A stretch of 38,750 bases of DNA from Alphaproteobacteria bacterium (GTDB lineage Bacteria; Pseudomonadota; Alphaproteobacteria; Sphingomonadales; Kordiimonadaceae). The notes beneath the pieces were generated by a model. That model saw only the letters and a program-made list of their open reading frames with translations, was not told the DNA's origin and searched no databases. The position numbers and the translations under genes are program-made. This document shows, piece by piece, positions 34,698-38,750 of this stretch (positions within the stretch are counted from its first letter, which is position 1; every line of letters begins with the position of its first letter). The stretch covers positions 1-38,750 of the forward strand of contig JAJFIT010000031.1 in the NCBI GenBank assembly GCA_021774775.1, written 5' to 3'.

Positions 34698-35360
34698 CTA
34701 TAGTTTGTAAGCATCGAGCAAACCGTGGGAAAGCGGCGCTGCCTCGCCTTCAGGCGCAACGTCCGGCGCGTGCTGGCGCATGCTGATCGGCACCACACCA
34801 GCCCAAACCGGATAGCTGGCCTCGTCGCCGTCACCGGGTGGGTCAGCCCGAACCTTGGCGCTGGCGTCTTCAATCTCCATCTCCAGCAGGCCGGTTGCCT
34901 TGCGCTCGGTCTCTGTCATGGGGCGCAACTGCGGCCAACGCCCAGGCGCCAGCATCTCGAAAAACCGTTCCATGTGATACTTGAACGCACCGTCATCTTC
35001 AACCAGGCGCGGCTTGCCGTAAGCCACCACGGAGCGGTAATTTACGCTGGTATTGAAAGCCGAACGCGCCAACACCAGGCCGTCCAGCTGGGTAACCGCA
35101 ACCGTTGCCGGATTGCCCTGTGCCAGATGGCGAATCATCATGCTCTTGGACGATCCGTGCCAATAAAGCCGGTTGCCCTCACGCCAATGGGACGTGGGGA
35201 TCACATAGGGCTGGCCGTTCACTTCAAACGCCACATGACACAGAAAATGGCTATCAATAATATCGTAAGCCAGTTTCTTGTCATAACTGGCCCGTTTCAG
35301 CCCGCGGCGCACCCGGTTTCGGTCATTGGCCGAAAAAGCACCGTTACCTTGCTTACTCAT
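34698..35360 (-). CDS. Pyridoxamine 5'-phosphate oxidase family flavin-binding protein
   Basis: A 220-residue split-barrel flavoprotein of the FMN-binding PNPOx-like group. HFLCHVAFEVNGQPYVIPTSHWREGNRLYWHGS is the typical N-terminal barrel (shown here as two overlapping motifs, FLCHVAFEVNGQPYVIP and TSHWREGNRLYWHGS), followed by NYRSVVAYGKPRLV and WAGVVPI. It is not the true PdxH. The ATG overlaps the stop of a small upstream ORF by eight bases. It is divergent from a MocR regulator, a pairing that suggests MocR controls it. Confidence 0.85.
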   Translation of the reverse strand: MSKQGNGAFSANDRNRVRRGLKRASYDKKLAYDIIDSHFLCHVAFEVNGQPYVIPTSHWREGNRLYWHGSSKSMMIRHLAQGNPATVAVTQLDGLVLARSAFNTSVNYRSVVAYGKPRLVEDDGAFKYHMERFFEMLAPGRWPQLRPMTETERKATGLLEMEIEDASAKVRADPPGDGDEASYPVWAGVVPISMRQHAPDVAPEGEAAPLSHGLLDAYKL

Positions 35361-35666: not shown

Positions 35667-37103
35667 ATGAAAGATGATTTCACCGCACTTTGGGGTAGCG
35701 GGCTGGATCCGCAATCTGGCAACACCCTGCAACGGCAATTGCACAGCAAAATTCGCACAGCGATTCTGGACGGCAAACTGGCGAGTGGTGCAAGACTGCC
35801 AGCCAGCCGTGTGTTGGCGAGCAGACTGGGTGTTGCGCGCATCACCGTTGTTCAGGCCTACGACCAACTGACGGCTGAAGGCTATCTGGAAAGCCGAACC
35901 GGTGCTGGCACCTTTGTCGCGGGCAGCAGCCCAGACCAGCTACTCCAAACCAGTAAAACACATGCTGCCAAACATGAAACGCCGCAGACTGAGTACCGCC
36001 ACGTCCTTCTGTCTGGCATGCCTGCGCTCGACCAATTTCCAATCACAATTTGGGCGCGAACCACCAGCCGCGCCATGCGCCAGCTAAACACTGAAATGAT
36101 GTACCACAGCGACGTGATGGGCTACGCGCCGCTACGGCGCAACATTGCAGATTATTTGCAGGCGTCGCGCAGTGCCCTATGCGATGCCTCGCAGATTATG
36201 ATTGTATCTGGCTTGCAACAGGGGCTGTTTTTGCTGGCAAATGCAACACTGAAACCTGACGCACCGATCATCCTGGAGGACCCCGGCTATGACGGCATGC
36301 TGGCGTCCGCGGCGGCCACAGGCCGCCCGGTCCACTATACCAGCGTCGACGACCACGGTGCCCTGCCACCCAAGCAGGCTGGTGGTATGCTGGTTACCAG
36401 CCCGTCGCGGCAGTATCCGCTGGGGCATACCATGCCGCACAGCAGACGGTTGGAAATGCTTGCCTGGGCGCGCACCACGGATAGCCTGATTTTCGAAGAC
36501 GATTATGATAGCGAATTTCGCTACGGCGGGCATCCGCTTAACAGCCTGCAAGGCATTGACGGCGGCGAGCGGGTTATCTACGGCGGCACCTTTTCAAAAT
36601 CACTGTTCCCCGCCTTGCGGCTGGGTTATTTGGTGGTGCCCAGGCCACTGATTGAGCGGTTGCAAAAATTCCGCAATGCCATCGACAGCTTCCCGTCAAT
36701 TACCGGGCAAATTGCCCTAAACGCCTTCATGAATGACGGCGACTTTACCCGTCACATCAGGCGCCTTAGAATGGTCCACGCCAAACGTAAGAATTTATTC
36801 ACCAATTTTGCCCACACTCACCTCAGGCGATTCTTGGATTTCCAGCCGTCCGATGCTGGCCTGCATTTGCTGGCCTATACGGCGGACGAACTTGTGAAAT
36901 CCGGGGTAAAAGACAAACAGCTTGCAGAACTGGCGCAGTCCGCGGGCATAGGCGCGGTACCGGTATCAAACACCTACCAGTTTGCACCAAAACAGCAGGG
37001 GCTGCTGATGGGTTTTGCCAATCTGGACGATGAAAAAATTGAAGGGGCTGTCAAAAAATTTTCAAGCGCCATATACAAGGTGCTGAACACGACAACGAAT
37101 TAA
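35667..37103 (+). CDS. MocR/PdxR-type transcriptional regulator (GntR helix fused to aminotransferase fold)
   Basis: A 478-residue PLP-binding regulator. The N-terminal GntR winged helix reads LHSKIRTAILDGKLASGARL and then SRVLASRLGVARITVVQAYD, ending EGYLESRTGAGTFV. A type-I aminotransferase domain follows with VSGLQQGLFLLA, LEDPGYDGM, TSPSRQYPLGHTMP, EDDYDSEFRY, and the PLP lysine in GGTFSKSLFPALRLGY (Lys311). Length is normal. Divergent from the PNPOx-like unit, and 15 bases before the carbonic-anhydrase-like gene. PdxR-type control of vitamin B6 or an amino compound is the likely theme. Confidence 0.93.
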   Translation: MKDDFTALWGSGLDPQSGNTLQRQLHSKIRTAILDGKLASGARLPASRVLASRLGVARITVVQAYDQLTAEGYLESRTGAGTFVAGSSPDQLLQTSKTHAAKHETPQTEYRHVLLSGMPALDQFPITIWARTTSRAMRQLNTEMMYHSDVMGYAPLRRNIADYLQASRSALCDASQIMIVSGLQQGLFLLANATLKPDAPIILEDPGYDGMLASAAATGRPVHYTSVDDHGALPPKQAGGMLVTSPSRQYPLGHTMPHSRRLEMLAWARTTDSLIFEDDYDSEFRYGGHPLNSLQGIDGGERVIYGGTFSKSLFPALRLGYLVVPRPLIERLQKFRNAIDSFPSITGQIALNAFMNDGDFTRHIRRLRMVHAKRKNLFTNFAHTHLRRFLDFQPSDAGLHLLAYTADELVKSGVKDKQLAELAQSAGIGAVPVSNTYQFAPKQQGLLMGFANLDDEKIEGAVKKFSSAIYKVLNTTTN

Positions 37104-37118
37104 AGGTTGGAGGAACTA

Positions 37119-37880
37119 ATGTTGCCACGATGGGTCAAATCAGGAACAGTGCTAGCCGCAGCAACATTGCTCGGCACATCTGGACTACTCGCTCAGGAAA
37201 ACTGGAGTTATACTGGCGCGAACGGCCCGGCCAATTGGCACACCCTCTCTGGCACCAACGCCTTATGCGCTGCTGGCCAGAACCAATCTCCAATTAATAT
37301 TGATGCAACCGAGCCTGCGGTGATGCACCGCCTGCGCCCTGATTACAACGTGTCCGAAATTAATCTGTCTCATAACCGATTGATGATTTCCATGGATTAT
37401 GAGCGGGGCAGTTACCTGCGGGTCGGCCAAAAAATGCTGACGCTCAACGGCCTTACCTTCCGCACCCCCGCCGAACACCGTGTGGCAGGTGAAACCTACC
37501 CGATGTCGCTTCAGTTTATGCACCGGGCCAGCGATGGCAGCCGGGCGATTGTCGTAACACTGGTAAAAGAAGGCCGCCCCAACCGGGCATTGGCAGAATT
37601 TATCGCCAACATGCCGCTGGAGCCGGACCAGCGAAACCGCAACGCCAGCATACTGGTCAATGCGCGCGACCTGATGCCAGCAGACAAAGGCTATTTCCGC
37701 TATATGGGTTCGTTGACAACACCTCCCTGTAGCGAAGGGGTCAGTTGGTATATCTTCAAACAACCCATTCAGGCATCCAAGGAACAGATTAATCTGGTGA
37801 GAGGCGTTGTTGGAGCAAGCAATGTTCGCCCGCTGCAAAACCGCGGCAATCGCCTGATTTTAGATGCGCGGGGACAATAG
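37119..37880 (+). CDS. Exported alpha-carbonic-anhydrase-like protein lacking the zinc ligands
   Basis: A 253-residue protein with a signal peptide (about 1-25, ending GLLA before QENWSY) and the alpha carbonic anhydrase fold: NWHTLSG, CAAGQNQSPINI, GSLTTPPCSEGVSWYIF, and the C-terminal NVRPLQNRGNR. The conserved Cys pair (Cys50, Cys204) is kept. The zinc site is not: aligned to HFHxPSEH, the first two His are Thr113 and Arg115, and the third (ExHLVH) is Gln132. It should therefore not bind zinc or hydrate CO2 and resembles animal carbonic-anhydrase-related proteins. ATG at 37119 with GGAGG five bases upstream. A lipoprotein gene follows after three bases. Confidence 0.85.
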   Translation: MLPRWVKSGTVLAAATLLGTSGLLAQENWSYTGANGPANWHTLSGTNALCAAGQNQSPINIDATEPAVMHRLRPDYNVSEINLSHNRLMISMDYERGSYLRVGQKMLTLNGLTFRTPAEHRVAGETYPMSLQFMHRASDGSRAIVVTLVKEGRPNRALAEFIANMPLEPDQRNRNASILVNARDLMPADKGYFRYMGSLTTPPCSEGVSWYIFKQPIQASKEQINLVRGVVGASNVRPLQNRGNRLILDARGQ

Positions 37881-37883
37881 ACC

Positions 37884-38699
37884 ATGACACCGCGACCACT
37901 TCACCAAAAACTGGCAACCATCCTCACGCTATCGCCGCTGCTGATTTTGGCAGCCTGTGGCGGCGGGGGCTTGCCGGGCAGTGGGCCGTCTGCGCGCCTT
38001 GCTGGCGGCACAGTCCAGGAATTGCCCACAAATCTGCAGGCCGCCATTTGCCAGGGCCGCGCCCAGGACGCCATTGATGCCCTGACCGCCGAGCCACTGA
38101 TGTCACCCACCGACAGATTTTATATCGCGCTCGCGCTGGATGAAGCTGGCATGGGAACCCGCGCCCGGCGCCTGTATGCCAGAGTTATGCAAACTGCGTC
38201 CAAAGACAGTGTGCGCGCGCGCTGCCCGGACAGGGTGCTGGCTAACGGCCCGGTTGTTGATGAGGCGGCCCGCCGCCTCGCCACCATATCGCAGGTGCTG
38301 TCTGCAATGGATGTGAACCTTGCGCCCCAACCACGTTTGCATGACGGCATCGCACCCTCCGGGCCAATCCGTGTGGTCGACCCGGTAAAATTCTCCGGCG
38401 TTGTTCCCAGCGGCCGTCCCAGTGCGATCGCCCGGCCCTCGAGCCAATCACCGCTGGGCCAGTGGTTCGTGCATCTGTCCAGCTACCGCTCCATGGATAC
38501 GGCGATGAAAAACCGCGCCACCGTCGAGGCGAAATTCCCGCCGTTGGCAGGTATCATTGACCAGTGGGAGCTTGAGGTCGGCGGCAGTGTTGCTGTGCGT
38601 CTTGGCGTTCGGGTCGGCGAAAAAGCCGATGCAACCAGCCTGTGCAATGCGATAAAAAGCCAGCAAGAATATTGCGCAGTTATTGACACATCACAGTAG
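37884..38699 (+). CDS. Lipoprotein with a C-terminal SPOR-like domain
   Basis: A 271-residue protein with a lipobox LILAAC (Cys25) followed by a Gly-rich linker, so it is probably anchored to the outer or inner membrane. A helical, TPR-like part follows (about 45-140, with DRFYIALALDEAGMGTRARRLYARV). The C-terminal ~85 residues begin GQWFVHLSSYRSMDTAMKNR and look like a SPOR peptidoglycan-binding fold. It starts three bases after the carbonic-anhydrase-like gene and is probably translated with it. The SPOR call is moderate; no function is known. Confidence 0.72.
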   Translation: MTPRPLHQKLATILTLSPLLILAACGGGGLPGSGPSARLAGGTVQELPTNLQAAICQGRAQDAIDALTAEPLMSPTDRFYIALALDEAGMGTRARRLYARVMQTASKDSVRARCPDRVLANGPVVDEAARRLATISQVLSAMDVNLAPQPRLHDGIAPSGPIRVVDPVKFSGVVPSGRPSAIARPSSQSPLGQWFVHLSSYRSMDTAMKNRATVEAKFPPLAGIIDQWELEVGGSVAVRLGVRVGEKADATSLCNAIKSQQEYCAVIDTSQ

Positions 38700-38750
38700 C
38701 GGGCGGTAAAGCTGCCTTAGGTATTTTCTGACCGGCTGGGGAGCGGGTCA

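Follow-up and report, generated by a model that had tools for sequence, protein, structure and literature searches.

Introduction

Carbonic anhydrases (CAs) that have lost catalysis are described in animals, viruses and Toxoplasma. The animal CARPs (VIII, X and XI, and those of cnidarians) have the alpha-CA fold, lack at least one of its zinc-binding histidines and have been retained in evolution. The cytosolic CARPs of cnidarians carry the triplet Arg-His-Gln at the zinc site, and secreted ones are described as having been reinvented recurrently (PMC4981384, in excerpt). Toxoplasma TgCA_RP lacks two of the three histidines and, like the eta-CA of Plasmodium (PfCA), has Gln as the third ligand; both come from eukaryotic parasites, and PfCA keeps two histidines and is described as active (PMC5437132, in excerpt). 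For bacteria, a search of one open-access library found no described group of acatalytic alpha-CAs, and the preliminary description of the locus treated here named none either.

The window analyzed here comprises 38,750 nucleotides of contig JAJFIT010000031.1, from an organism of the Kordiimonas lineage (Kordiimonadaceae), and encodes an alpha-CA-like protein with Thr, Arg and Gln in place of the three histidines. Its fold is that of the bacterial alpha-CAs 8w7x, 4c3t and 6im0 (34–39% identity, Z about 34), and its triplet is near the one reported for cnidarian CARPs, as are the related xRQ and xHQ triplets of its orthologues (PMC4981384, in excerpt). Like TgCA_RP and eta-CA it has Gln at the third position, but it keeps no histidine at all, whereas the former lacks two and the latter retains two. 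Unlike the animal CARPs, it is bacterial and apparently exported, it has a SPOR-like partner, and the loss occurred within a paired orthologue group that still holds members with an intact site.

Residue numbers such as 94, 96 and 119 follow human CA II numbering, and triplets are given in that order. Labels beginning with L (L001, L002 and so on) denote loci and those beginning with G (G003, G008) denote genomes in this analysis.

The Gene and the Fold of Its Product

37109–37113, forward strand: ribosome-binding-site-like GGAGG before the ATG (direct sequence reading)
37119–37880, forward strand: gene of an alpha-CA-fold protein of 253 residues, a probable pseudoenzyme (PF00194 match at E 1.4e-27, AlphaFold model, superposition)
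37119–37193, forward strand: signal-peptide-like stretch, residues 1–25, with SGLLA directly before QE (read by eye)
37266–37268, forward strand: Cys50, one half of the conserved Cys pair (unchanged in all 27 rows of alignment A1)
37728–37730, forward strand: Cys204 of the same pair, within TTPPCSEG (invariant in alignment A1, 27 rows)

Membership in the alpha-CA superfamily is clear from the PF00194 profile match of 97.3 bits (E 1.4e-27), against a cut-off of 27, and the best match to bacterial alpha-CAs with known structure, among them 6im0 and 6eki, reaches E 4.3e-47 in alignment. The AlphaFold model (mean pLDDT 95.2, pTM 0.91) superposes on 8w7x with a Z of 34.2 and 1.2 Å over 222 residues, and on bacterial alpha-CAs more widely with a Z of about 34 and 1.2–1.3 Å over 222–225 residues. 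The preliminary description had noted a signal peptide and an intact Cys pair; the N-terminus is indeed signal-peptide-like, ending LLA before QE, and C50 and C204 do not vary in any row of alignment A1. The motif AQ(D/E/S) at the putative signal-peptide end recurs across many orthologues. Alpha-CA matches were also present in 193 plasmid records, every one of them below 60% identity.

A Zinc Site Without Histidine

37455–37457, forward strand: Thr113, at the His94 position (alignments)
37461–37463, forward strand: Arg115, at the His96 position (alignments)
37512–37514, forward strand: Gln132, at the His119 position (alignments; codon read in the sequence)

In the alignment to 6im0 and 6eki, T113, R115 and Q132 stand opposite the three zinc histidines, and the 95-row alignment concurs, which bears out the earlier claim that all three ligands have been replaced. 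The protein thus (TRQ) has neither the His set at 94, 96 and 119 of a catalytic alpha-CA nor the His-His-Gln set of an eta-CA, and it shows the CARP-like combination of an alpha-CA fold with at least one zinc histidine missing. Gln92 and Glu117 support the zinc ligands in the classical enzyme; the window protein has Gly and Ser, respectively, at these positions, and Leu at that of His64. Retained are Glu106 (E119), His107 (H120), Thr199, Thr200, Trp209 and the Cys pair C50/C204; roles in alpha-CA have been described for His64, Glu106 and Thr199 (PMC4981384, in excerpt). The Glu119-His120 said earlier to be kept is therefore the Glu106-His107 pair, while a further retained histidine, given as His134, is in fact H135.

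Misalignment, with other histidines serving as replacement ligands, was rejected on the basis of the alignment and of the model's superposition: no other His falls at the metal site in the alignment, and the fold superposes on bacterial alpha-CAs at 1.2–1.3 Å. Sequencing or assembly error was likewise rejected, the same substitutions being present in independent genomes. TRQ recurs in the 90%-identical orthologue L002, so that the homologue sharing all three residues that had been proposed as a check does exist, and VRQ is found in five genomes (L003–L007); together with dN/dS values of 0.10–0.13 among L001–L003, this makes chance or sequencing error unlikely.

Ligand Triplets in the Family and Beyond

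Searching 59 genomes around the window, 29 of its family, not all of them complete, and 30 from other families of the order, gave a PF00194-type homologue in 28 of the 29 family genomes (its own included) and in one of the 30 others. None of the 28 family matches contains an internal stop. Orthologues of the present clade occur in 27 of the 29 family genomes, the 28th homologue (G026) being a canonical HHH protein that the tree places on another branch. Together with two Rhodospirillales assemblies (L072 and L073), the 27 family orthologues make up a clade of 29 members, referred to below as the pair clade.

At least one ligand has been lost in 22 of these 29 members, and all three in 10. The triplets of the family are HHH, HHQ, NHH, NHE, xHQ (x being V, T, D, S or K), xRQ (x being T, V or E) and TKQ. 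HHQ is carried by L018 and L020, and by L076 outside the pair clade, and the intact HHH pair members are L072, L073, L026, L012, L016, L017 and L022. By matching, Kordiimonas sediminis (ERQ), Eilatimonas milleporae (DHQ) and Pseudokordiimonas caeni (NHE) apparently belong to the family, with K. marina and K. gwangyangensis apparently among its HHH members. Val121 is a pocket position of the classical alpha-CA, kept in the K. marina protein, and two of the HHH members, L017 and L022, have Asp there; judging from this residue, even pair members with intact ligands may be altered in activity.

Outside the pair clade, 66 rows were read, 64 of them from the best 80 of 588 matches and two from the 59-genome search, a sample biased toward the query. 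Here HHH prevails (58 of 66), unlike in the window protein, and eight rows have a substituted ligand: L076 (HHQ), L085 (DHQ), L091 (VRQ), L092 (YHH), L093 (ERH), L094 (SRQ), L115 (THQ) and L127 (VRQ). A phylum-wide sample of 299 genomes gave 52 PF00194 matches, of which 50 were read after the window's own and G044 (HHH) had been set aside. HHH was found in 44 of the 50, substitution in four (NHH, QHQ, RHQ and EHH, the EHH row possibly being misaligned) and an incomplete site in two, one of these with Gln at 119. The RHQ and QHQ proteins (L246 and L243) are alpha-CA homologues from other families, and the triplet of L246 is the one reported for cnidarian cytosolic CARPs (PMC4981384, in excerpt).

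Both inside and outside the family, His96, where lost, is replaced by Arg (Lys in one row) and His119, where lost, by Gln, except for Glu in two sister rows. The intermediates HHQ and NHH may, by analogy, still bind zinc, since Gln119 is the eta-CA pattern and the His94Asn variant of human CA II retains reduced activity (PMC5437132, in excerpt). The window protein is past this stage.

The Partner Gene and Its Neighborhood

37884–38699, forward strand: partner gene, encoding an exported lipoprotein of 271 residues, 3 bp after the CA-like gene (lipobox LAAC; TPR-like N-terminal and SPOR-like C-terminal domain)
38701–38717, forward strand: terminator-like hairpin after the pair (pattern scan; seven found against 4.7, sd 2.0, in shuffled sequence, near chance)
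35667–37103, forward strand: MocR-type regulator gene upstream, outside the pair (PLP_TF_PdxR, 401 bits, cut-off 320)

Among 29 loci compared for neighborhood (28 of the family and one of the order), the partner is the next same-strand gene in 27, the exceptions being G026 and G044, the latter from another family. At the 25 loci with a placeable start, the distance between the two genes lies between -17 and +15 bp. Across the 59 genomes, partner profile matches at E of 1e-74 or better occur in 27, exactly those with this CA clade, and three further genomes have weak matches to the C-terminal part only; as the search profile itself included 25 of these 27 partner proteins, what this result adds is the lack of strong matches in the remaining genomes. 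In L072 and L073, an HHH alpha-CA is followed directly by the same partner, and the other neighbors seen in the family are not nearby. The partner was not found at the 64 other outside loci (from the best 80 of 588 matches), three of which end less than 500 bp from the gene.

A lipobox is present in 25 of 27 partner proteins. None was found in L051 and L052, from two genomes of genus g4, whose partner may be a soluble periplasmic protein on this sequence reading. In the closest relative, G014 (L030, 9005–9772), a stop lies inside the SPOR-like gene match near its end, so that the gene is seemingly shortened, by assembly error or truncation.

The domain assignments of the partner are modest. 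Its SPOR match (PF05036) has E 0.06 and 14.1 bits, below the gathering score of 21, and 20 of the 27 family partner proteins have SPOR matches at E up to 1 (best 6e-5). The AlphaFold model (pLDDT 81, pTM 0.45) gave no Foldseek match at E of 0.001 or better, the SPOR domain of RlpA (6i05) standing third in the list with E 0.04 and a probability of 1.00. Superposition on 6i05 yields a modest Z of 7.7 and 3.2 Å over 74 residues, and that on TPR domains an equally modest Z of up to 9.3, with LpoP (6w5q) at 9.2, below the caution threshold that applies to helical repeats. The C-terminal domain may resemble that of RlpA, whereas the N-terminal domain differs in being TPR-like, and glycan binding by the partner is putative.

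Tree distances of the CA-like and SPOR-like proteins correlate with a partial r of 0.72, the same as for SPOR and MocR (0.72; 18 genomes), so the pair is not singled out by this measure. The MocR-type gene lies upstream in 21 of the 27 pair loci, including all 19 of the genus, and is missing in the other six. In the window this PLP regulator is divergent from a pyridoxamine-phosphate-oxidase-like gene (34698–35360, PF12900). A sodium symporter gene is an equally constant neighbor of the pair within the family. Further conserved neighbors, DnaJ-like and Psp-like genes among them, have the look of family synteny. Psp and GNAT are labels given by reading the sequences, whereas for SNF, PNPOx and DnaJ a single protein each was checked. 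Promoter-like sites in the scan were near chance level.

Order of Events

The tree was built from 95 rows with the ligand columns removed and was midpoint-rooted; basal forks within the family are weak. All 29 pair members group in a single clade (support 100/96). Its first branches are the HHH proteins L072 and L073, and the HHH members L026, L012, L016, L017 and L022 are interspersed with degenerate ones. A constraint that unites the 22 degenerate members lowers the log-likelihood by 42 units (AU p 0.0135), and a single ligand loss at the family root is thereby rejected. Two ligand changes are forced by the starred branches and five are needed by parsimony, while loss-only counting on the 95-row tree arrives at eight within the pair clade and eight outside; regain of His is possible. 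A tree of the species in the genus, inferred from AhcY and TrpB and weak in its deep forks, likewise mixes genomes with intact and degenerate sites.

Most likely, on these phylogenetic grounds, ligand loss has recurred. The pairing is most likely older than the loss, because L072 and L073 branch first and carry the SPOR-like gene next to an HHH alpha-CA in surroundings that lack the family's other neighbors.

Selection and Alternative Explanations

Among the ligand-less L001–L003, dN/dS is 0.11, 0.13 and 0.10, compared with 0.05–0.13 for neighboring genes in the same genomes. Other pairs give 0.05–0.28, the highest value belonging to L016 and L017, both HHH; two pairs are saturated, and several comparisons are near or at dS saturation. 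V78, E160, R183, Y211 and R242 never vary among the 29 pair members but are rare, at 2–12%, in 58 outside HHH proteins, and the Cys pair and Glu106 are invariant in 27 of 27 family members. The five invariant residues imply that the clade fixes these positions and leaves the zinc site at liberty to vary. Root-to-tip paths are longer in degenerate lineages (1.45, n=22, against 1.14, n=5; p 0.02, uncorrected for relatedness), and some relaxation of these lineages is therefore possible.

Such relaxation could be taken further, to an enzyme that is no longer useful and is drifting toward loss, with the pairing as a relic. The longer paths, the repeated loss of ligands in many different ways and the beta-CAs found in 17 of the 19 genus genomes would all suit this explanation. 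We nevertheless regard it as unlikely, given a dN/dS of about 0.1 among proteins without ligands, 28 family matches free of internal stops, and the invariance of the five clade-specific residues, the Cys pair and Glu106. The earlier suggestion of selection for a non-catalytic job gains support instead from the low dN/dS, retention in 27 of 29 family genomes, loss on more than a single occasion, the invariant residues and the adjacent partner gene.

That job might be the binding of a small anion or sugar in the former active site, with Arg96 and Gln119 as contacts. Within the family and beyond it, a lost His96 gives way to Arg or Lys and a lost His119 mostly to Gln, Glu106 and Thr/Ser199 are kept in all 22 degenerate pair members, and dioscorin with bound ascorbate (4twl) shares the fold (Z 30.1). 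A shared ligand site, however, would hardly leave position 94 freely variable (T, V, D, S, K, E or N), nor the wall positions 64, 65, 67, 92 and 121. Moreover, one base change is enough to turn a His codon into one for Arg or for Gln, and mutation supply may account for part of the Arg96/Gln119 pattern in this way. A changed pocket of this kind is accordingly improbable.

Less probable still is a role as helper of the sodium symporter encoded downstream, in the manner of human CARPs and a lactate transporter, where CARPs VIII, X and XI enhance transport by MCT1 non-catalytically (PMC6609565, in excerpt). At 25 of 27 loci the symporter gene (PF00209) comes after the pair; at the remaining two, the window and L038, the contig ends within 60 bp. 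Yet pair and symporter are separated by 67–253 bp at 24 loci and by 1.3 kb at another, in contrast to the coupled CA and SPOR-like genes; the symporter was not found beside the pair in L072 and L073; and further family synteny is conserved as well.

An active CA working by unusual chemistry, either zinc-free or with the metal placed elsewhere, is very unlikely: Glu106 and Thr199 persist, and the HHQ members share the ligands described for the eta-class enzyme of Plasmodium (PMC5437132, in excerpt), but in the window protein the site contains an Arg and not a single His, and the His64 shuttle is missing.

A Probable Binding Protein of the Periplasm

The protein is thus probably a secreted alpha-CA pseudoenzyme, a bacterial analogue of the animal CARPs, kept for binding a protein or ligand in the periplasm. 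With this function, the SPOR-like domain of the partner would dock on cell-wall glycan, and the CA-fold protein would bind either the lipoprotein itself or a client that the lipoprotein presents. Arg at position 96 would make up for the charge that went with the zinc and hold the pocket together; standing in the place of the zinc, it could stabilize Glu106 and the pocket without a metal. In the ancestral pair, catalysis would have become dispensable more than once, and the binding role would not. The recurrent reinvention described for secreted CARPs in cnidarians is a close evolutionary parallel.

With three beta-CA matches in its own genome, the organism need not rely on the CA-like gene for CO2 hydration. 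Compensation by beta-CA as the trigger of ligand loss was considered and is unsupported, because beta-CA presence does not track the loss: of the 19 genus genomes, the two without one are G003 (VRQ) and G008 (HHH).

A wider proposal is more tentative, and the evidence falls somewhat short of making it the expected outcome. The CA fold may have become the pure binding subunit of a SPOR-like lipoprotein in an alphaproteobacterial envelope module, catalysis having been lost more than once while relatives with an intact site survive, and bacteria may hold largely overlooked CARP-like pseudoenzymes that converge on Arg96 and Gln119.

Concluding Remarks

The partner gene, the graded series from HHH through HHQ and xHQ to xRQ, and the orthologues with an intact site are additions to the preliminary description. 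Taken at the level of sequence, this is a bacterial CARP-like family in which dead, intermediate and intact-site orthologues occur in one and the same gene pair. The label "carbonic anhydrase" on a bacterial protein is hence no guarantee of activity. As cultured members with dead, intermediate and intact sites apparently exist, the role of a zinc-less CA fold is testable by gene removal.
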